From positions 186,001 through 250,000 of the forward strand of contig NZ_JAUTAN010000001.1 of NCBI RefSeq assembly GCF_030818655.1: a stretch of 64,000 nucleotides of DNA. Reading direction: 5' to 3'. Positions 1 through 14,758 of this stretch are shown here, piece after piece. Source of the DNA: Nocardioides zeae. Lineage in GTDB: Bacteria > Actinomycetota > Actinomycetes > Propionibacteriales > Nocardioidaceae. The position numbers and the translations under genes are program-made. Positions within the stretch are counted from its first letter, which is position 1, and every line of letters begins with the position of its first letter. The notes beneath the pieces are model-generated. The model made no database searches and was not told where the DNA came from. It was given only the letters and a program-made list of their open reading frames with translations.

Positions 1-261
1 ATTAAGATTGCCGTTGAATCTAACCCTCCTACGCTCACCTTCGAAGATAATGGACGCGGGGTGTCGGCAGTTAATAGAGATAAGATCTTTCAGCCATTCT
101 TCTCGCTCAAGGACACAAAGAGGAGGAGGGGGCTTGGTTTATTCATCGCCCGCGATGCTGCCGAGTACAACGGCGGTTCGTTGGAACTCTCGGAGGTCAA
201 GAATTCTGAGACTGGGCGCCATCACAGATTCGTACTCACGCTACCTGGTGGTGATCGATGA
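1..261 (+). CDS. GHKL ATPase / histidine-kinase catalytic domain, C-terminal fragment
   Basis: The gene enters from the left edge and only its last 86 codons are visible. They show the ATP-binding (CA) domain of a GHKL ATPase: a G1-type DNGRGV box, an F-box-like FQPFFS and a G2 box GLGLFIA. This fits either a sensor histidine kinase or an Hsp90-like ATPase; the missing N-terminus would decide. Its stop overlaps the ATG of the next gene by 4 nt (ATGA at 258-261), so the two products are probably made in fixed proportion and act together. Base composition is visibly less GC-rich than in genes to the right, suggesting acquisition by transfer. Confidence 0.8.
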   Translation: MKIAVESNPPTLTFEDNGRGVSAVNRDKIFQPFFSLKDTKRRRGLGLFIARDAAEYNGGSLELSEVKNSETGRHHRFVLTLPGGDR

Positions 262-2231
262 CGCTCGTGAATCAACTGCGAACATCTGGCATAGAAAAAG
301 CGCTGATAGTAGACGACGTGTTCGACAGGGTGCCAACGGCGTCTGATCTACGTGACGGGCCGTGGTCGACGTTCTTCGATGATCTGACAGATGAGGATGA
401 CCGCCTATTGCGCGAGTTGTATCCCCAGTTTGCAGACGATGCCCACGATCCAGAAGCCCAGGACGAGTTCGTCAAGTTGGTGTGGTTGGAACGAGAGAGG
501 TTGCAGAAGGATAACTGGGAGCAGCTTTTTCGTTCATACCTAGAGATCCAGGCTGGTGACCAGGAGTACGTCGATGCGCTCAAGTCGCAGTTGGAGACTT
601 GGGGCCTGACGGTGGAGCAGCGCGGGCGGGACTTCGAGACGGCGGTCAGTGATGCTGACTTGGTGGTCATTGACCTCTACCTTGGTGCTAGTCAAGATGA
701 AGAATCGTTCGAGCGGTCCCAGAGTTTGCTTCGGAACGCGGTCACGGCTCGGCATGAGCGACCGCCGTTGGTATTGCTCATGTCGCGAAGCGGGCGCCTG
801 GAGTCCAAGAAGGACGACTTTCGCGACAGTGTAGGACTCGTAGACTCCGGTTTTAGAATCATTGAGAAGTCGGACATTGAGTCAACTCGTCTCGAGACAC
901 AGTTGGAACGGCTCGCTGTCAATTCCGAGGATACGCTGAAACTATCGCGGTTTCTATTCGAACTTGATTCCGGGATTCGCGACGCTGCCGACGAGGCAAT
1001 AAGGTTGATGCGCAAAATCCGGCTATCGGACATCGGCCAAGTTCAGCAGCTCCTACTGGATGCAGAGGGTCAACCGGTCGGCAGTTACTTGGTCGACGTT
1101 TTCGACCGAGTTTTGCAATATGAGTTGGAGCGGCAGACGGGAATCATCGACGCAGCGGTTGCGATGAATGACTTTGCCACTGCAGAGCACCCTCCGCCGT
1201 ATGTTGCTGGATCTACCGATTTGCAGCAGATCGTGGCGAGGACGCTAGCTCAGCACGTGAAGAGGTTGGAACTCCCAGGCTCGAAAAGCTCGCAGGTGGC
1301 TTTCGGTGACCTCCTCATTCCAAGCAAGAGCGCAGACCAGATCGATGCGGGCGGTGTCTTAGGTGATATCGTCGATCAAGACGTGCTTTTGGTAGTGACG
1401 CCGGCCTGTGATCTGCAACGCGACGACGTCCCACGAATCCTCCTGCTTGCGGGAGAGATTGTAAGCTTGGACCGCAGTACCTGGAAGTACACGAGTGGCG
1501 CGCGAACCGCAGCTGTGCGGATCAACGGCGAACTCGTGGGCGTGACGTGGTCAGTGAAACACCTCGAGAGCATTTCACGCCGACGCCTGGATGAGGCACT
1601 GGGCTCGGGCGCGCTTTCTATTGTGGCGCGACTGCGGGAGGCGCATGTCCTCGAACTGCAGCAAAAGGTTTTGGCTGATTTGGGTCGAGTCGGACAGATG
1701 TCCAACCTGCCTGCGACGTTCGCGGTTGAGCTAGAGGCATACTACGTGCAGGCTTCGGACTCAGCTGCTTTGCTGCCAGCGGCGAGTCTCGGGGATGGGG
1801 CGGTGTGTTTTGTCGGGCGAGACGATCGGGGGAACTCCCGCATGAGACTGGTTCTCACCGAGAATCAGTGCGATGACTTACAGGCTGCGGTGGACGACCT
1901 GACTGCCGATGATGTATCGCGGCATGTGCGGCGGTCGCTCGAAACTCTCAAAGGTGGCTCTCTGCGGAGGGCCATCTTTGCCGGTATCGAGCTCGGGAAT
2001 GCGATCGACCTGAAGTTCCGTTCGGTCGGGTCGGTAGCCGATAACGTTGGAAAAGCAGTGCCTTTGGGCGTTGTTGCCTGGAACCAGGCGATTCCGGACG
2101 ACGGTTCGGCGTTCGGTGATCACAAGGGGTGCTGCCTAGTTCTGGTGGTTCGCAATCTGGAGTCAGATCGCGCGGTGTCGAGTCGCGAGGCGGCTGGCCT
2201 TGCCGTTCCGGACGACGAGATCTCCAACTGA
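258..2231 (+). CDS. Large protein with N-terminal receiver-like domain, coupled to GHKL ATPase
   Basis: A 657-aa protein. Its first 210 residues read like a response-regulator receiver: an acidic pair in LIVDD (Asp19/Asp20), a likely phospho-acceptor Asp140 in VVIDLYLG, Ser177/Ser179 in LLMSRS at the Thr/Ser position, and Lys205 in EKSD. Between the acidic pocket and Asp140 there is about 100 extra residues, unusual for a receiver. The remaining 450 residues contain no DNA-binding domain I recognise; a conserved-looking TPACDLQR motif sits near residues 382-389. With the upstream ATPase it resembles a two-component pair of the kind found in accessory or conflict islands, but the output activity is unknown. 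The GC content is low for this genome. Confidence 0.7.
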   Translation: MTLVNQLRTSGIEKALIVDDVFDRVPTASDLRDGPWSTFFDDLTDEDDRLLRELYPQFADDAHDPEAQDEFVKLVWLERERLQKDNWEQLFRSYLEIQAGDQEYVDALKSQLETWGLTVEQRGRDFETAVSDADLVVIDLYLGASQDEESFERSQSLLRNAVTARHERPPLVLLMSRSGRLESKKDDFRDSVGLVDSGFRIIEKSDIESTRLETQLERLAVNSEDTLKLSRFLFELDSGIRDAADEAIRLMRKIRLSDIGQVQQLLLDAEGQPVGSYLVDVFDRVLQYELERQTGIIDAAVAMNDFATAEHPPPYVAGSTDLQQIVARTLAQHVKRLELPGSKSSQVAFGDLLIPSKSADQIDAGGVLGDIVDQDVLLVVTPACDLQRDDVPRILLLAGEIVSLDRSTWKYTSGARTAAVRINGELVGVTWSVKHLESISRRRLDEALGSGALSIVARLREAHVLELQQKVLADLGRVGQMSNLPATFAVELEAYYVQASDSAALLPAASLGDGAVCFVGRDDRGNSRMRLVLTENQCDDLQAAVDDLTADDVSRHVRRSLETLKGGSLRRAIFAGIELGNAIDLKFRSVGSVADNVGKAVPLGVVAWNQAIPDDGSAFGDHKGCCLVLVVRNLESDRAVSSREAAGLAVPDDEISN

Positions 2232-2385: not shown

Positions 2386-2832
2386 TCAAGCAGAGGACAC
2401 GTCTCGGCCGTGAGTATCGCGAGCCCGCACACCCCTCGCTTTGATGTGGCGCTGCACGGTGCGTGGCGCAAAGCCAAGCTGTCTGCCGACGGCAGCCATA
2501 GAGAGGCCGGTTCGGTAGAGACGGATCATCTGGTCGATGTCCTGCTCAGTGGGGCTCTGGAAGCGGGTGGCAATTCCCTGCCGCTTCAGGTGCGCCGAGA
2601 CGGTGCGGCGGTCGATGCCGAACTGGGCCGCCAGTTCGTAGACAGTGGCACCCGATTGGTAGCTATCGACCAGGCGAGCGACCTGGTCTGCACCGAGCTG
2701 GATGGCACGCTTCGCTTGCCTGCGCTGCGTCGTAACGGGGGTCGCGCAACTGAGGTCAAGGTTGCGGTAGGCCCTGATGGCTCGCTCGAGTGGAGGTGGG
2801 GTCGGGTTGGACAACCATCCCGCGAGGACCAC
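2386..2832 (-). CDS. Tandem helix-turn-helix protein, possibly a mobile-element remnant
   Basis: The reading frame is open from 2904 down to 2386, but its first part runs through a 19-bp hairpin, so the true start is probably the GTG at 2832 or TTG at 2814; neither has a convincing ribosome site. The protein carries two similar HTH units: one ending [13 protein letters not shown] and one ending [13 protein letters not shown]. This layout is seen in DNA-binding proteins that accompany serine recombinases and in recombinase C-termini. No catalytic recombinase domain is present nearby. It lies on the boundary between the low-GC left edge and normal-GC sequence, consistent with a fragment left by a mobile element. 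Confidence 0.45.
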
Positions 2833-2844
2833 AGCAGCCCTCTG

Positions 2845-2884
2845 ACACGACCGCCCGCCCGGGTTCCCGGGCGGGCGGTCGTGT
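2845..2884 (-). terminator. Perfect 19-bp hairpin after the LuxR-type regulator
   Basis: Arms 2845-2863 and 2866-2884 are perfectly complementary (19 bp) with a 2-nt centre, GC-rich, about 35 nt past the stop of the response-regulator gene read leftwards. There is no U-tract, which is common for actinobacterial terminators. It also separates the island edge from the core genes. Confidence 0.7.
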
Positions 2885-2918
2885 GTTCTGGAGCCGGGTC
2901 GCATCTATCGGTCTCTCC

Positions 2919-3563
2919 TCAGGAGATGCCGGCGCGGATGGCGAGGATGGCCGCCTGCGTCCGGTCACGGCTCGACGTCTTGGAGAGCACGCTGGTGAGG
3001 TGAGTCTTCACGGTGTGCTCGGAGAGGGTCAGGTGCTCGGCGATCTCCTGGTTGCTGAGGCCCTTGCCGACCAGCGCGAGGATCTCCTGCTCGCGGGGCG
3101 TCAGGCGAAATGCCTGCAGTTGGACGGGATTCGGTGAAGGGAGCGCGCGCGCCTTGGCGAGGACAGCCCGGGTGACCTCCGGCGCCAGGACCGAGCGACC
3201 CTGGGCGACCTCTCGCACTGCCTGGACGAGCGTCGCCCTGCTGCTCCTCTTCAGCACGTATCCGTCGGCGCCGGCGGTGACCGCGTCGACGACCAGGGTG
3301 TCGCGGTCGAAGGTGGTCACGACGAGGACGGCCGGGCGACGGGGGCGGCGCGCCAGCTCGGCGAGTGTGGCGATCCCGTCCAGGACGGGCATGCGCAGGT
3401 CGAGCAACACCACGTCGATGCCTGCCCCGGCGTCCCATGCCTGCAGGAACTCCCAGCCGTTGGCGGCCTCGCAGACGACCTCGAGGTCGGGCTCGGCTCC
3501 GAGGATGAGGGAAAGCCCTTCTCGGACGAGGTCCTGGTCGTCGACGATGGCGATGCGGGTCAC
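2919..3563 (-). CDS. NarL/LuxR-family response regulator
   Basis: A 214-aa two-domain response regulator. The receiver has the acidic pair in IVDDQD, a phospho-acceptor Asp in LLDLRMP, Thr in TTFD and Lys in VLKRS. The C-terminal LuxR-type HTH has LTPREQEILALVGKGLSNQE and the recognition helix region SEHTVKTH. The GTG start at 3563 overlaps the kinase stop (GTGA), so kinase and regulator are translationally coupled. The target is unknown; the nearest candidate is the divergent membrane-lipid gene pair beginning at 4899, with a palindrome in the shared promoter region. Confidence 0.93.
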   Translation of the reverse strand: MTRIAIVDDQDLVREGLSLILGAEPDLEVVCEAANGWEFLQAWDAGAGIDVVLLDLRMPVLDGIATLAELARRPRRPAVLVVTTFDRDTLVVDAVTAGADGYVLKRSSRATLVQAVREVAQGRSVLAPEVTRAVLAKARALPSPNPVQLQAFRLTPREQEILALVGKGLSNQEIAEHLTLSEHTVKTHLTSVLSKTSSRDRTQAAILAIRAGIS

Positions 3564-4783
3564 CGGGCGCTCCTCGGGAGGCGCACGTCGACGAGCGTGC
3601 CGACCCGCTGACCGGAGCTGAAGGTGGCGCGTCCGCCGAGCTGCTCGGCGCGCTCGCGGATGCCGCGGAGTCCGTTGCGGCGCTGCAGCTGGTCCGGCAG
3701 CCCCACGCCGTCGTCCTCGATCTCGACCAGCACGTGGGCGTCGACGTCGTGCACCCGCACCCTGACGTGCCCGGCTCCCGCGTGACGCATGACGTTGGTC
3801 AGTGCCTCCTGGGCGATGCGGTAGATGGCCGTGACGACGTCGGGATCCTCCGTGACGGTGGTGATCTCGACGTCCACCTGGACGCCGCCGGCGCGAAGAG
3901 GTGATGCGAGGGCGGAGTCGATCTGGTTCAGGTCGATCGGTTGTCGAGGGGGGGCCGGCGGGTTCACTTCGGACGCGTCGCGGAGGTCGAAGAGCACGGC
4001 GTCGAGCTCCGTGAGTGCCTGGCGTCCGAGATCCGCGATGGCGACGAGCGAGGTCTCGGCGTTCCGCACCTGACCCGCTTCGGCCTGGACGACGATCGCG
4101 CTGACGTGGTGACCGAGGGAGTCGTGCAGCTCTCGTGCGAGGTCGCTGCGCCTCTGCAGGTCGCGCTGCCGTGCTTCGTTGGCTCGTGCCTGACGTTCGA
4201 GCTCCCGCGACCGAGCGTCGAGGTCGCGCAGCGCGCCGACGAGCTTCCGTGCGGGGGCGATGAGCAGCACCAGGAGCGTCGCCGCTCCGATCGGCACCAG
4301 CGTTGCCGCGGGCTTCGCTTCGGGAAGCACCCCGGCCACCGCCGCGCCGAGTGCACCGGCGATGCACGCGAGGACCGGAGCGGTACGTCGGGTGCCCCGG
4401 GTCTCGTCAGCCGATGAGAGCACCAACAGCGCTGTGGCTGCGGGCCAGAACGAGAAGTACTCGCCACTGGTCATCGCGACGGCCACGCCGCCGCCCAACG
4501 CTGCAGCGGACGCCGACAACAGCCACCACCGCCGGAGGAGGAGGGCCGCCGTGGCGGAGAGGGCCACGATCGCCATGCCGCTGACCTGCACGGGCCCCGG
4601 ACCGTTGAGCGACACGACGTACAGGGACACCACGGAGATCGCGAGTGCCCCAGCGGGCAGGGCCAGTCGTCCACCGACCGACCATCGAGCGGGGACCTCG
4701 TGTCCTCCCACGGCGTGCATGGATCGCAGTCTGGCGGAACGGACCTGCTGACGGAGCCCCGCGCGGCTGGTGGGCGTCGTCAT
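3560..4783 (-). CDS. DesK/NarL-type sensor histidine kinase
   Basis: A 407-aa membrane kinase. Several hydrophobic segments occupy roughly residues 40-190, followed by a coiled-coil-like linker, a HisKA_3 dimerisation helix with the phospho-acceptor motif ELHDSLGHH (about residue 220), and an ATPase domain with EALTNVMRHA and IEDDGVGLP. There is no sizeable extracellular sensor, which fits kinases that sense the membrane itself. I take the ATG at 4783 (MTTPTSRAG) rather than the upstream open frame, because the upstream frame crosses the divergent promoter and a perfect inverted repeat. It forms an operon with the LuxR-type regulator. Confidence 0.92.
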   Translation of the reverse strand: MTTPTSRAGLRQQVRSARLRSMHAVGGHEVPARWSVGGRLALPAGALAISVVSLYVVSLNGPGPVQVSGMAIVALSATAALLLRRWWLLSASAAALGGGVAVAMTSGEYFSFWPAATALLVLSSADETRGTRRTAPVLACIAGALGAAVAGVLPEAKPAATLVPIGAATLLVLLIAPARKLVGALRDLDARSRELERQARANEARQRDLQRRSDLARELHDSLGHHVSAIVVQAEAGQVRNAETSLVAIADLGRQALTELDAVLFDLRDASEVNPPAPPRQPIDLNQIDSALASPLRAGGVQVDVEITTVTEDPDVVTAIYRIAQEALTNVMRHAGAGHVRVRVHDVDAHVLVEIEDDGVGLPDQLQRRNGLRGIRERAEQLGGRATFSSGQRVGTLVDVRLPRSAR

Positions 4784-4788
4784 CTGTC

Positions 4789-4816
4789 GGGATCTGGTAC
4801 CGAGGTACCAGATCCC
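4789..4816. promoter_or_regulatory. 13-bp perfect inverted repeat in divergent promoter region
   Basis: GGGATCTGGTACC (4789-4801), a 2-nt centre, then its exact reverse complement (4804-4816). It lies 6 bp upstream of the kinase ATG and 83 bp upstream of the CDP-alcohol transferase start. It could be an operator shared by both transcription units or a hairpin in the kinase mRNA leader. Confidence 0.6.
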
Positions 4817-4898
4817 GGCTCGCTCTACGACCAGCTGGGTCCCAGAGATCAGACGCGGGTCCCATCCGCGCGAGGTGGCGCCTCGACAGGCTGAGTGC

Positions 4899-5546
4899 AT
4901 GGCCACCTTCCTCGTTCCGCCGATGACCGCACCCTCCGTGAACGTCGACCTGGGACCGCCCCCCAGCGCCTTCCTGTCCGACGGCGTCGCCACGGTCGCC
5001 AACGCCGTGACGCTCGTCCGCACGGTTGCGGCGGTGGCCGTCGCTGCGATCGCCCTCACCCACTCCGAGCCCGTGCTCCTGGTCATCGCCTACGCCGTGT
5101 ACTGGGTCGGGGACATGCTCGACGGCTGGACCGCGCGTCGGCTGCAGCAAGAGACGCGCCTCGGCGCCGTCTTCGACATCATCAGTGACCGCGCGTGCAC
5201 CTCGGTGCTCTGCATCGGGGTGATCGTCGAGTACCCGCAGCTCGCCTTCGTCGTCGTGCCGTTCTTCCTGTCCTTCATGGTGCTGGACACGATCCTGTCG
5301 TTGGCCTTTCTGTGCTGGCCGATTGTCAGCCCCAACTACTTCGCGGCAGTCGACCGCACTGTCTACCGGCTGAACTGGTCGCCCGGGGCCAAGTGCCTCA
5401 ACACAGCCGGCGTCGTGCTGCTTGTCGCGGTCGGAGCGACCTGGGTCGCCCTGGCGCTGGTGGTGGTGCTCATCGGAATGAAGAGCTGGTCGCTGGCACG
5501 GGTGCAGTCGATGCTTCGGGCAGCCGGAGCAGGTGGACCTTCTTGA
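4899..5546 (+). CDS. CDP-alcohol phosphatidyltransferase family protein
   Basis: A 215-aa integral membrane enzyme. It carries the full family signature D(x2)DG(x2)AR(x8)G(x3)D(x3)D, spread over GDMLDGWTARR, then G-AVF-D-IIS-D (roughly residues 72-98). Enzymes of this family move a phosphatidyl group from CDP-diacylglycerol to an alcohol (glycerol phosphate, inositol phosphate, serine and others); the acceptor here cannot be told from sequence. The ATG at 4899 has a weak AGG upstream; an in-frame ATG at 4923 is an alternative. Its stop overlaps the TTG start of the next membrane gene. Confidence 0.88.
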   Translation: MATFLVPPMTAPSVNVDLGPPPSAFLSDGVATVANAVTLVRTVAAVAVAAIALTHSEPVLLVIAYAVYWVGDMLDGWTARRLQQETRLGAVFDIISDRACTSVLCIGVIVEYPQLAFVVVPFFLSFMVLDTILSLAFLCWPIVSPNYFAAVDRTVYRLNWSPGAKCLNTAGVVLLVAVGATWVALALVVVLIGMKSWSLARVQSMLRAAGAGGPS

Positions 5547-8408: not shown

Positions 8409-9194
8409 TCAGGCCCGGTGCCCGACCGCCCCACCCCGCCGCAGCCCCACGACCGCCGCGACGAGCAACGCGACGGCCGCGACCGCCGCTGCGACCACCA
8501 CGGAGTCGGTCCCGTCCGACAGACCCGTCACGGCGATGCCGAGCAGCGCCCAGAGGCCGGCCGCGGCGTACGCGGCGAGACGCCCGACGAGCACCAGCGC
8601 CACCAGCGTGACGGTCGCGACGGCGACCACCGCGAGCTGCCAGCCGACGGCGTCCGCCTCGACGACGCCCCAGCCGACCAGCGCGGTCGAGAGGTTGAGG
8701 AAGAAGGCGGCGGAGACCCAGCCGGCGTACAGACCGAAGGCGATCCGCGTGAGCGTCCGGTGGCCACGGGGAGCCAGCTCGTCACCGGTGCGCGCCAGCG
8801 TCAGCACGCCGTCGACGGCGAAGCCGAACATGAGCGCGAGCGCCACGAACGTGGCGGTGCTGCTGTCGAGCGCGGCCATGAGGATCCACAGGGTGCCGCC
8901 CAGGTAGAGCCCGATCTGGTCGAGCTGCAGCCGCAGCGGCACGCGCCGGTCGCGCTTCACCATCGTCGAGACGGCCTGGATGATCGCCAGCGCGTAGATG
9001 ACGCCCCAGATCGAGAACGCCCAGCCCACGGGGGTGATGAGCAGCTCCGCGCCGGACCCGCTGCCGGGGGAGGCGCCGGGTCCGCTGATCGTCGCGATCG
9101 GTGCGACCACCTGCAGCACCGCGGCGGCCAGCACCGCGTTGGCGAGCCGTCGCTGGCGGGGGTGCGGCCTCGAGCCGGTCTGCGTGCGCTCCAT
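8409..9194 (-). CDS. TspO/MBR-related multi-pass membrane protein
   Basis: A 261-aa protein with about eight membrane helices. The segment PVGWAFSIWGVIYALAI resembles the start of TspO/MBR (translocator) family proteins, which bind tetrapyrroles or other hydrophobic ligands; this form is longer than classical TspO (about 160 aa), as in the plant/actinobacterial tryptophan-rich relatives. The ATG at 9194 (MERTQTG) is preferred over an in-frame ATG 27 nt upstream because the basic segment then leads directly into the first helix. No obvious operon partner. Confidence 0.7.
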   Translation of the reverse strand: MERTQTGSRPHPRQRRLANAVLAAAVLQVVAPIATISGPGASPGSGSGAELLITPVGWAFSIWGVIYALAIIQAVSTMVKRDRRVPLRLQLDQIGLYLGGTLWILMAALDSSTATFVALALMFGFAVDGVLTLARTGDELAPRGHRTLTRIAFGLYAGWVSAAFFLNLSTALVGWGVVEADAVGWQLAVVAVATVTLVALVLVGRLAAYAAAGLWALLGIAVTGLSDGTDSVVVAAAVAAVALLVAAVVGLRRGGAVGHRA

Positions 9195-9321
9195 GCGATC
9201 GAGGTTACGGAGGCCGCCCACCCGACCAGGTGGGAGCGCGCTGCACGTGCCCGACGTGACGCGGTGGTTCGCTGAGCACCCGTCGGCTCAGCAGGTCACC
9301 GCACTGATCGGGCGCCGCCCG

Positions 9322-9464
9322 TCAGCGGTAGACGACGACCACCACGGCTGCGGCCACCGCCACGATCGCGACGGTTGCGGCGAGAGCGGGGCGTCCCTTG
9401 CGAGCGGCTACCACGGCGACGACGAGGACGACCACAGGAGGGCCAGCCACAGCTCGAGTGTCAT
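9322..9464 (-). pseudogene. Tiny membrane-protein gene, apparently frameshifted
   Basis: An ATG at 9464 with a good AGAAGG upstream begins MTLELWLALL and then hits a stop after 18 codons. The overlapping frame from 9450 to 9322 encodes a continuous hydrophobic stretch followed by VVAARKGRP and a second hydrophobic run ending VVYR. Joining the two with one added base near 9435 gives a typical 46-47-aa two-helix peptide. Either one base was lost (or missed in sequencing), or translation begins at the GTG at 9450. The surrounding gap 9195-9633 shows nothing else I recognise. Confidence 0.4.
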
Positions 9465-9633
9465 GGGGTGCCTTCTACCAGCCAGCGCCCCCGCCCGTGG
9501 GGCGGAGCGAGGTCCGGACTAGACAGCGCTCAGCGTGATGTTCGTGCGGTGGGCTCGATGCGCTCGAGCTGCTGGGCTCCTGGGGCAGGGGGCCGTCGTA
9601 CTCCTGCTAGTCGCTCTCGGGGAGCCAGGTCGG

Positions 9634-11559: not shown

Positions 11560-13106
11560 CGGACGGTCTCCTTCTCGGTGGGCTCGTCGGCGGCGGGGGT
11601 CTCGACCGCCGCCTCGGTGGGGGTACGGCGCGGGCGCACCCGCCCCAGCACCAGCGGCACCACGACGAGCAGCACGATCACGGCGTAGACCACGACCGCC
11701 AGCGGCTCGTCCACGAGCCCGGCGGGGTCGCCGCCGGAGATCGCCAGCGCCTCGCGCATCTTCGTCTCCATCAGCGGGCCGAGGATGACGCCGAGGATGA
11801 GGGGCAGCACCGGCAGCCCGAAGCGGCGCATCGCCAGGCCGAGCAGGCCGAAGACGAGCAGCAGGAACAGGTCGAACGGCTGCTGGTTCGCCGTGTAGGC
11901 ACCCAGCGAGGCGAAGAAGAGGATGCCCGCGTAGAGGTAGGGCCGCGGGATCCGCAGCAGCTTCGCCCACAGCGGCGCCAGCGGCAGGTTGAGCACGAGC
12001 AGCAGCGTGTTGCCGATGAGCAGGCTGGCGAGCAGCGTCCACACCAGGTCCGGGTGCTCGGTCATGAGCTGCGGGCCGGGCTGGATGCCGTAGCCCTGCA
12101 GCGCCGCCAGCATGATCGTCGCGGTCGCGGTGACCGGCAGGCCGAGCGCGAGCAGCGGCACGAACGTGCCCGCGGCCGAGGCGTTGTTGGCGGCCTCCGG
12201 ACCGGCGACGCCCTCGATGGCGCCGTTGCCGAACTCGTGGCCCCGCTTCGCGAGGCGCTTCTCCAGCACGTACGAGAGGAAGGTCGGCGTCTCCGCACCA
12301 CCCGCCGGCACGGCGCCGAACGGGAAGCCCAGGGCGGTGCCGCGCAGCCACGGCTTCCACGAGCGGCCCCAGTCGTCGCGGCCCATCCACGGGCGGCCGA
12401 CGGGGATGACGGACAGCGGACGGCGACGGAGGTGGGCGGCGACCCAGAGGGCCTCGCCGAGGGCGAAGATGCCGACCGCGACGACGACGATGTCGAGCCG
12501 GTCCGCCAGCAGCGGCTGGTCGAAGGACAGGCGCGGCTGGCCGGTGTTCATGTCGAGCCCGACGAGCCCGATCGTGAGGCCGATGAAGAGCGCGATGAAG
12601 CCGCGCAGCCGGGACGAGCCGAGCACGCTGGTCACGAGCACCATCGCCATCAGCATGATCGCGAGGTAGGACGGCGCACCGATCTTCACGGCCACCCCGG
12701 CCAGCGCCGGGGCGAAGAACACGACGAGCATCGTGCCGATCGTGCCGGCGATGAACGAGCCGATGGCGGCGGTGGCGAGCGCCTGGGCGGCCCGTCCCTT
12801 CTTCGCCATCTTGTTGCCCTCGAGCGCCGTCATCACCGAGGCGGACTCACCAGGGGTGTTGAGCAGGATCGAGGTGGTGGACCCTCCGTACATGCCGCCG
12901 TAGTAGATGCCGGCGAACATGATGAAGGCCTGGGTCGGCTCGAGGCCGAAGGTGACGGGCAGCAGCAGGGCGACCGCCATGGCGGGGCCGATGCCGGGGA
13001 GCACGCCGACGAACGTGCCGAGCAGCACGCCGATCGCGGCCCACATGAGGTTCTCGGGCGTGATGGCCGTGGCGAGGCCGTCCGCGAGGAGTGACAGGGA
13101 GTCCAT
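11556..13106 (-). CDS. tctA: Tripartite tricarboxylate transporter, large membrane subunit TctA
   Basis: A 516-aa protein with about 12 membrane helices and the family motifs [17 protein letters not shown] near the start and [18 protein letters not shown] in the second half. TctA forms the translocation channel of secondary transporters that use a periplasmic-type binding protein to import citrate and other carboxylates. The ATG at 13106 is preceded by GAAAGG; an in-frame upstream ATG would lie inside tctB. It follows tctB closely and overlaps the usp start. Confidence 0.95.
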
Positions 13107-13116
13107 GACGCGCCTT

Positions 13117-13677
13117 TCAGAGGATCCCGTCGAGGACACCCGGCGTGAGCGGGATGCCGAGACCGACGTAGAAGCCGTACCAGCTGCCGACCGCGAGGAC
13201 GACGCCGATGAGGAGGTCGCGCACGTAGGTGCGCGAGCCGAGCGACCAGGTGGCGCCGGCGAAGAGGATCGCGCCCGAGACGGCCCAGCCGAGCCAGTCG
13301 ACGGTCGCGATGGTGAGCACGAGCACGCCGACGAGCTTCGCGACGGTCAGCCAGTCGGAGCGCTGCGTGAGGTCGACGTCCTCCCCGTCCTCCGGGGTGG
13401 GTACGTCGCCGCGCAGGGCCGCGAGGCCGAGCAGGACCCCGAGGCCGACGAGCACGGAGCCGATGACGTACGGGAACGCCTTGGGCCCGACGGGGTCGGC
13501 GAACCCGACGACGAGCGTGGAGGCGTCGTAGACGGTGTAGGCGCCGATGACGACGAGCGCCGCGGCGAGGCCGAGCTGGGCCAGGTCGCGCTCGCGCTCG
13601 GGAGCGGGTGGCGGGGTGCCCTCGACCGCGGGGGCGGTGGTGGCCGGCCGGACCGGCTCGGTGGGGGTGGTGGTCAT
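13117..13677 (-). CDS. tctB: Tripartite tricarboxylate transporter, small membrane subunit TctB
   Basis: A 186-aa protein with a Pro/Thr-rich cytoplasmic N-terminus and four membrane helices, ending [16 protein letters not shown], typical of TctB (the ...LPxG(x)L tail). TctB is the small membrane partner of TctA; sequence conservation in this family is low and the assignment leans on topology and position. It lies between tctC (64 bp upstream) and tctA. Confidence 0.92.
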
Positions 13678-13741
13678 CGCGGGCTCGTTCCTCCGAGGGC
13701 GTCGGGGCAGGGGTGGTGCGACGGGGCGTGGGGGTCGGGGG

Positions 13742-14758
13742 TCACGACAGGTTCAGCCCGAGCTCGTCGAGGGTGCCGGCCACGCGGGCGTCCTCCTCGG
13801 TGAGGAACTGCTCGAACTCGTCACCGGTCTGCAGCGCGTCGATCCAGCCGTTGTCGGCCATCGCCTGCTGCCACTCGTCGGTCTCGTGCATCTCGACCAC
13901 GAGCTCGATGAGCCGGTCGCGGGCCTCGTCCGAGATGCCGGGCGGGGCCAGCACGCCGCGCCAGTTGTTGAAGACGAGGTCGACGCCGGACTCGGTGACG
14001 GTCGGCACGTCGGAGAGGACGTCGTTGGCGAGGCGCTCCTCGCCGGAGACGGCCAGCGCGCGCAGGTCGCCCGAGGCGATCTGGCCCTCGAACTCGCCCA
14101 GGCCGGAGAAGCCGACCTGGATCTTGTCGCCCAGCAGGGCGGAGGTGAGGGGGCCGCCGCCGTCGTAGACGACGTAGCGGACGTCCTTGGGGTCGATCCC
14201 TGCCGCCTGCGCGAGCAGCATCGGGAAGAGGTGGTCGGGGCCACCGACGGACGAGCCGCCACCCACGACGATGGACCCCGGGTCGGCGCGCCAGGCCTCG
14301 ATGAAGTCGTCGAACGTCGCGTAGGGCGAGCCCGCCGGCACGAGGACGCCCTCCTGGTCCTCGATGAGCTTGGCGATGGGCGTCGCGTCCTGGGGCCGGA
14401 CGTCGTTGCCGTTGGAGTAGAGGGAGCCGACGACGCCGAGGCCCATGTACATCATCAGGTGCTCGTCGCCCTCGGCGTTCATGAGCCGGGACATGGCCAC
14501 GGAGCCGCCCGCGCCGATGATGTTGTTGATCTCGAAGTCGCCGTCGGTCAGGTCGTTGCGCTCCATGGCCGCCACGGCGGCCCGGCCGGTCTGGTCGTAA
14601 CCTCCACCGGGGCTGTTCGGGATGTAGACCGTGTAGTCGTCCCCGGAGCCACCGCGGGTGACCCCGCAGGCGCTCGCCAGCGCCGCCACCATCACGCCGG
14701 CGACGGTCGCGCCGGTGATGCGGGTGAGCCGCGACGTACGGGAGAATGGCTGCTTCAT
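13742..14758 (-). CDS. tctC: Tripartite tricarboxylate transporter substrate-binding lipoprotein TctC
   Basis: A 338-aa extracytoplasmic solute receptor. The signal peptide ends in a lipobox (VMVAALASAC), so it is tethered to the outer face of the membrane. Family features include IPNSPGGGYDQTGRA for ligand carboxylate binding and IVVGGGSSVGGPDH. It delivers a carboxylate to TctAB; the substrate is not defined by the sequence. ATG 14758 is used, 64 bp from the divergent sensor kinase start, so the two promoters overlap and the two-component system probably controls this operon. Confidence 0.94.
   Translation of the reverse strand: MKQPFSRTSRLTRITGATVAGVMVAALASACGVTRGGSGDDYTVYIPNSPGGGYDQTGRAAVAAMERNDLTDGDFEINNIIGAGGSVAMSRLMNAEGDEHLMMYMGLGVVGSLYSNGNDVRPQDATPIAKLIEDQEGVLVPAGSPYATFDDFIEAWRADPGSIVVGGGSSVGGPDHLFPMLLAQAAGIDPKDVRYVVYDGGGPLTSALLGDKIQVGFSGLGEFEGQIASGDLRALAVSGEERLANDVLSDVPTVTESGVDLVFNNWRGVLAPPGISDEARDRLIELVVEMHETDEWQQAMADNGWIDALQTGDEFEQFLTEEDARVAGTLDELGLNLS

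Follow-up and report, generated by a model that had tools for sequence, protein, structure and literature searches.

The window studied here is a stretch of 64,000 bases (186001-250000) of the single-contig genome (4.38 Mb) of Nocardioides zeae. At its left end lie the last part of a histidine-kinase gene and the complete gene of a receiver-fold protein, which a preliminary description of the window had taken for a candidate conflict or signaling module. As that description had proposed, we extended the sequence leftwards. The added 16 kb (L002; the window coordinate is the L002 coordinate minus 16000) contained the rest of the kinase gene, which encodes 788 amino acid residues (aa) in full and comes immediately after sspA-B-C-D; these genes serve single-stranded DNA phosphorothioation, a system of sulfur marks against phages. 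The genes of SspA, SspB, SspC, and SspD, identified by strong PADLOC matches, are consecutive on one strand, with 76 bases between sspD and the kinase gene. As the upstream neighbors are an XRE-type helix-turn-helix (HTH) gene and sspA-B-C-D, the pair in the window is the tail of an Ssp operon. The two genes of the pair overlap by 4 bases, as had been described, and are likely to be translationally coupled. We found that this Ssp-linked pair, for which we found no name in print, is a real and conserved signaling module of Ssp defense. The features are listed in Table 1.

Table 1. Features of the Ssp operon, the kinase-receiver pair, and the adjoining region in N. zeae
Feature	Position	Strand	Evidence or remark
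XRE-type HTH gene	L002 6938-7363	same as kinase	upstream of sspA
sspA (cysteine desulfurase)	L002 7360-8535	same as kinase	PADLOC SspA 7e-124
sspB (DUF4007)	L002 about 8532-9491	same as kinase	PADLOC SspB 9.9e-101
sspC (1173-aa ATPase)	L002 9488-13009	same as kinase	PADLOC SspC E=0
sspD (PAPS-reductase-like)	L002 about 12997-13818	same as kinase	PADLOC SspD 1.6e-114
Kinase gene (788 aa, P0121)	from L002:13895 (2106 bases before the first base of the window) to window 261	+	
Kinase gene end, last 86 codons	window 1..261	+	HATPase_c 2.1e-11
Receiver-fold protein, 657 aa	window 258..2231	+	overlaps kinase stop codon by 4 bases
Receiver domain, residues 1-226	window 258..935	+	receiver fold in predicted model
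Output region, about residues 340-480	window 1275..1697	+	invariant G350, C384-D385, W431, G479
Open reading frame (ORF) with two HTH_23-like motifs	window 2386..2904	-	Pfam

The GHKL ATPase that the preliminary description had recognized at the start of the window is the C-terminal end of the kinase. The full-length protein matched HATPase_c_3 and HATPase_c in Pfam and has the HEF_HK-type architecture, that is, HATPase_c_3, an H-box, and HATPase_c. In the predicted model, an Hsp90/MORC-type ATPase module, which matches Hsp90, Morc3, and SMCHD1, precedes a DHp-CA histidine-kinase core with His573. The kinase is predicted to be soluble. The phosphotransfer residues of the H-box, N-box, and G-box are intact in all 61 full-length kinases that we compared (40 of the best 120 listed and 21 from the retrieved loci, those from genome loci being longer than 750 aa; the truncated kinases of L016 and L022 were left out).

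In the receiver protein, structure prediction gave the receiver fold that had been anticipated. The receiver residues named earlier are real: Asp19 and Asp20 were placed correctly, and the remaining three were each off by one and are Asp139 (the phospho-acceptor), Ser176, and Lys204. The acidic pair, the acceptor Asp, the Ser, and the Lys are kept in 98 of 98 receivers (40 of alignment A1, 56 of the 60 proteins P0242-P0301 that exceed 560 aa, and two plasmid proteins; the Acinetobacter baumannii protein in the receiver position, described below, was excluded). The approximately 100 extra residues noted before the phospho-acceptor lie between beta1 (14-18) and beta2 (118-122) of the model. Thus, the hallmarks of a two-component system are present on both sides of the pair, the folds being predicted: a receiver fold with its acidic pair, acceptor, Ser, and Lys, and a kinase with H, N, and G boxes. 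Judged from these sequences, phosphotransfer within the pair is probably real.

The Hsp90/MORC-type ATPase module also suggests a different role, in which the kinase would be a MORC/MutL-like, ATP-driven DNA-looping or clamp protein and the receiver a structural partner, with no phosphotransfer. The match of the N-terminal module to Hsp90, Morc3, and SMCHD1 fits this explanation, and the available part of PMC2292703 proposes looping for MORCs and paraMORCs in restriction-modification (R-M) systems. Those ATPases resemble the window kinase in the Hsp90/MORC-type module of its predicted model and in the association with DNA-modification defense; the window kinase differs in having a histidine-kinase core and in being paired with a receiver. 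However, if looping were the only role, it would be hard to explain why the residues are conserved in all 61 kinases and all 98 receivers, and we regard this explanation as improbable.

The C-terminus of the receiver protein (about residues 226-657) had been described as lacking a known output domain, and indeed gave no match near the cut-off in Pfam, PADLOC, or NCBIfam. When the whole receiver model was submitted to Foldseek, the top rows were MazF chains (E 6e-3, root-mean-square deviation 4.8-6.6), in an output that does not display the aligned part. Receiver segments compared with a PemK-family profile gave P values of 0.28-0.43, and 0.14 with a deeper alignment; the comparison used 29 PemK-family domains from 30 loci, one having been dropped because it was cut by a contig end. 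We did not adopt a MazF-like output domain, given the weak Foldseek match and the lack of profile support, and keep it as a lead. When the sequences of solved structures were searched with this receiver's profile, three matches appeared (best E 0.34), which we took as chance.

The linkage of the pair to Ssp was examined in two collections. A scan with the receiver profile of one genome per species returned 21 loci. Within flanks of up to 10 kb, a kinase sequence lies beside the receiver homolog in 20 of them, and SspC was detected in 16. In whole-genome searches SspD was present in 18 of the 21 genomes, and in all 18 the kinase aligned end to end. In L014 and L019, SspD lies just beyond the retrieved stretch, and the adjoining coordinates place it on the same contig; the L011 locus ends at a contig end. 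SspD was unmatched in the genomes of L016, L021, and L022, which may be incomplete. These three loci have split, truncated, or missing genes for kinase and receiver; the contig of L021 measures 5.5 kb, L016 retains a piece of SspE, and L022 retains a piece of SspC. SspD itself is rare, being found in 8 of 396 genomes drawn from the phylum, the window genome included. No receiver homolog was found in 395 other genomes of the phylum, with up to three candidates per genome scored among the matches listed, or in 97 other genomes of the genus, so that the window genome is the sole carrier among 98.

Among 72,556 plasmid records, 60 contain SspD at E<=1e-40. The kinase was found in 15 records (E<=1e-50) and the receiver protein in seven (E<=1e-10); SspD is present in 15 of 15 and 7 of 7, with gaps between kinase and SspD of 40 bases to 12.2 kb. 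After relatives were collapsed (three Acinetobacter records into one, and two Agrobacterium plasmids of identical length into one), 12 of 12 kinase plasmids have SspD. As related plasmids are not independent, the hypergeometric value of 1.6e-38 indicates an order of magnitude. Three further plasmid kinases appeared at E<=1e-20, bringing the kinase to 16 of the 60 SspD records. One is in an A. baumannii record with SspD. The others, from Allorhizobium and Hymenobacter, are distant (26-27% identity) and outside the 60 records; by annotation, one follows the gene of a class I S-adenosylmethionine-dependent methyltransferase and the other that of a site-specific DNA-methyltransferase, a setting that resembles the published R-M type pairs discussed below. 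The phage records gave no match at E<=1e-5.

The position of the pair relative to the ssp genes varies. The order A-B-C-D-kinase-receiver is shared by the window and the Methylorubrum plasmid pME152. The Rhizorhabdus plasmid pSWIT01 has kinase-receiver-HTH-A-B-C-D, and in Ensifer the pair is convergent with D-C-B-A-HTH. In a Candidatus Chlorohelix plasmid, the order is A-B-C-kinase-receiver-D; that is, the pair lies inside the ssp operon. If the pair were a separate system that merely shares defense islands with Ssp, variable order and strand would be natural, as would kinase distances that follow those of Ssp only moderately (see below). But both collections show near-complete linkage to SspD, the genes of the pair are broken where no SspD was found, and the pair can sit inside the operon. 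Mere island sharing is not expected to give linkage that strict, and we consider this explanation very improbable.

The pair occurs with different effectors. SspE lies near it in the genome loci L005, L006, L007, and L012 (a fragment in L016), and SspF, G, or H in L003, L004, L008, L009, L014, L015, L018, L019, and L020 (in L004 and L018 as an end piece only). A trio of a helicase, a MORC-type protein, and a PLD-like protein was found at L010 and L017. Within the genome flanks, none of SspE/F/G/H or the trio was found in L013, L023, L011, or the broken L021 and L022. Seven of the 12 plasmid loci with SspD (L077-L081 and L084-L090) contain SspH, alone or along with F and G. No SspE/F/G/H was found in the other five (L078, L081, L084, L086, and L088) within up to 18 kb per side. 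With flanks of these lengths, remoter effectors would escape notice. In the window genome, SspE was not found: neither the SspE model PDLC02792 nor DUF262 (PF03235) gave a match; both match in 8 of 14 control genomes. Matches to the SspH model lie in five stretches, of which three loci were examined and proved to be FtsK or EccC-type genes. The SspG model gave no match in a search that had no positive control, and SspF was not searched for. The helicase-MORC-PLD module, sought via its MORC-type protein, was not found, also in a search with no positive control.

Some neighbors of these loci deserve mention in their own right. The trio (helicase, MORC-type GHKL protein, and PLD-like protein) lies beside or near sspD in L010:3095-7472, L017:18505-21843, L072:5414-9244, and L073:2501-6508; no SspE or SspF/G/H was found in the retrieved stretches of these four loci, and L072 and L073 also have no kinase-receiver pair. 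The trio may thus represent one more effector module of Ssp. Immediately after the receiver gene, L006:12098-15088 encodes a protein of about 990 aa with NB-ARC/STAND and TPR matches; such a protein is likewise found in L003, L005 (cut short), L007, and L010, and its N-terminus appears HNH-like by eye. Near the pair in two Ssp loci with no known effector, L078:8502-10919 and L088:20618-23038 encode proteins of 805-806 aa whose matches to HATPase_c_3 are very weak (E 0.022 and 0.0063). In three loci, a methyltransferase-like protein is encoded near the Ssp genes (L014:6051-7493, L069:10150-10974, and L073:6930-8249).

Related pairs are already known beside R-M systems. The kinase/receiver pairs published in 2021 (PMC8011034; HEF_HK, PF19191, and Response_reg_2, PF19192) likewise consist of a kinase-like protein with HATPase_c_3 and HATPase_c and an adjacent receiver-like protein with an unassigned C-terminus; their partner is methylation, whereas that of the window pair is phosphorothioation. 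The window's own proteins fall under both Pfam cut-offs. The kinase reached 16.7 bits against the HEF_HK cut-off of 24.1, which its close relative P0211 passes (25.8), and the receiver protein gave no match to Response_reg_2 at E<=1. A distant receiver relative in L023 reached 14.1 bits against the PF19192 cut-off of 27. As the cut-off was missed, the receiver protein was not filed under PF19192. By profile, the C-terminal domains of the two groups may match (hhalign probability 85, P 6.5e-6) in a comparison with only two PF19192 proteins; with the close family alone, the hhalign probability was 3.8. The main text of PMC8011034 does not mention phosphorothio, DUF4007, PAPS_reduct, cysteine desulf, Aminotran, or Dnd. 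The earlier conflict or signaling reading is supported in part.

A link to Ssp has been touched on in A. baumannii. According to the part of PMC12421847 (2025) available to us, Ssp occurs in 61.91% of A. baumannii genomes, sspE is missing beside Ssp in 5,518 of 5,530, and a one-sentence remark notes a two-component system near the Ssp region of global clone 2; the remark concerns one clone, with no protein analysis in that part. The A. baumannii locus in CP040048.1 (L081, 13756-23097) fits this remark and may be the same locus. Here, SspB-C-D faces the genes of a kinase with 29% identity to that of the window and of a protein of 637 aa. The protein in the receiver position has no BLAST match to the window receiver, and its profile probability of 3 is not significant. 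The available part of PMC10853773 contains no kinase or receiver terms. In the full-text literature, with subscription papers and preprints outside the search, we found no statement of a general link between Ssp and a kinase-receiver pair.

The region of the Ssp operon and the pair is accessory. As the preliminary description noted, its base composition differs from that of the rest: the GC content is 0.53-0.61 across the pair and 0.67-0.75 rightward from 3 kb on. Across 18 kb leftward of the window, it is also fairly low (0.54-0.67), and thus the contrast is sharpest at the pair itself. The HTH remnant reported next to the pair does contain two HTH_23-like motifs on the minus strand; it lies outside the Ssp module and is perhaps a recombinase or transposase remnant at the island edge. 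A perfect, terminator-like 18-base inverted repeat with a 2-base loop, read by eye, overlaps the start of this ORF (window 2846-2883). The adjoining GC-rich stretch (window 2919-5086) encodes, by eye, a LuxR/NarL-like response regulator and a histidine-kinase-like protein, apparently unrelated to the Ssp-linked pair. In the lower-GC stretch upstream of the Ssp operon are an ORF that by eye resembles the condensation/thioesterase part of a nonribosomal peptide synthetase (L002:14-2329) and an EcsC-family gene (L002:5916-6932).

We conclude that the pair is very probably a functional module of Ssp. As it is found in three different effector settings and also without any effector, a conditional extra arm is favored over a part of one effector; our tentative proposal is that the pair is a dedicated two-component module of Ssp and most likely such an arm. 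By analogy with MORC and MutL, the N-terminal module of the kinase would close on DNA or a partner when ATP is bound, and its state would set the autophosphorylation of His573. The phosphoryl group would pass to Asp139 of the receiver, which would then act via its 430-residue C-terminus. The pair may read DNA or the state of the Ssp machinery and be released when protection fails, working alongside SspE or SspFGH, or in genomes such as that of the window, in which neither is seen.

Several observations weigh against this proposal. No kinase was found at E<=1e-20 in 44 of the 60 SspD plasmid records, and the pair is present in none of seven other actinobacterial SspD loci, two of which (L067 and L073) start within or near sspC. 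In Pfam, PADLOC, and NCBIfam, the receiver C-terminus showed no recognizable effector domain, such as a nuclease, and its resemblance to MazF is weak, without support from the profile comparison (P 0.14). Of the 18 genome loci in which both SspD and an intact kinase are present, 13 have SspE or SspF/G/H as well as the pair, and so do 7 of the 12 plasmid loci; thus, the pair is not simply the missing restriction partner. Co-inheritance of the kinase with Ssp was expected to be strong and was found to be moderate. The correlation of kinase distances with the distances of SspB, SspC, and SspD is r 0.62, 0.55, and 0.53, respectively (in each case 0 of 5000 permutations as high), and that with the distances of SspH is r 0.115 (1090 of 5000 as high), whereas the correlation is 0.92-0.97 among SspB, C, and D and 0.92 between SspH and SspC. 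These values indicate that the pair was swapped between Ssp lineages, apparently to a greater extent than the effectors.

The main rival of this proposal is a regulator that holds restriction until the marks are placed, which would explain most of these observations too. The kinase would sense DNA or its modification state, and the phosphorylated receiver would control the expression or activity of the Ssp genes, so that restriction stays off until host DNA is modified. Such a gate would pay, because SspFGH damages host DNA without the mark, according to the available part of the discussion in PMC8092258. In the sets examined, the pair is found with SspE, SspFGH, another module, or none, yet always with SspD where it is intact, and in the available part of PMC8011034 the authors suggest that the R-M type pair controls R-M systems. 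On the other hand, a Pfam search of the window receiver protein at E<=1 revealed no output domain that binds DNA, and the pair also occurs where no SspE/F/G/H is seen (L078, L084, L086, and L088, and the window genome, where the limit on SspF applies). We regard a regulator as possible, if rather doubtful. The lack of a recognized DNA-binding output domain, together with the loci with no known effector, tilts the balance slightly to the effector side, and we take the receiver protein, with reserve, for an effector rather than a regulator.

The window operon, like published SspABCD systems with SspE or SspFGH, has SspA, SspB, SspC, and SspD, and the kinase-receiver pair belongs to neither published effector set. 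According to the available part of PMC8092258, 2,211 of 2,678 sspBCD modules lack both sspE and sspFGH, for which its authors propose that more restriction counterparts exist or that some sspBCD modules are truly orphan. In the most specific form of the effector proposal, the receiver protein would be an effector gated by phosphorylation, and a DNA-clamping kinase that senses the phosphorothioate state of the DNA would release it. The receiver protein would be the unrecognized arm, for restriction or abortive defense, of many 'orphan' sspBCD systems, the type of A. baumannii global clone 2 included. This form is unlikely as a whole; if true, it would mean a restriction system run via a histidine-aspartate phosphorelay. 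The pair is a concrete candidate for part of the sspBCD modules without sspE or sspFGH, as its kinase occurs in 16 of the 60 SspD plasmid records, and it may give the Ssp region of a major A. baumannii clone a component that can be analyzed. The pair links histidine-aspartate signaling to modification of the DNA backbone. Taken together, this pair and the R-M type pairs already published suggest that defense by DNA modification has a general partner of this kind.
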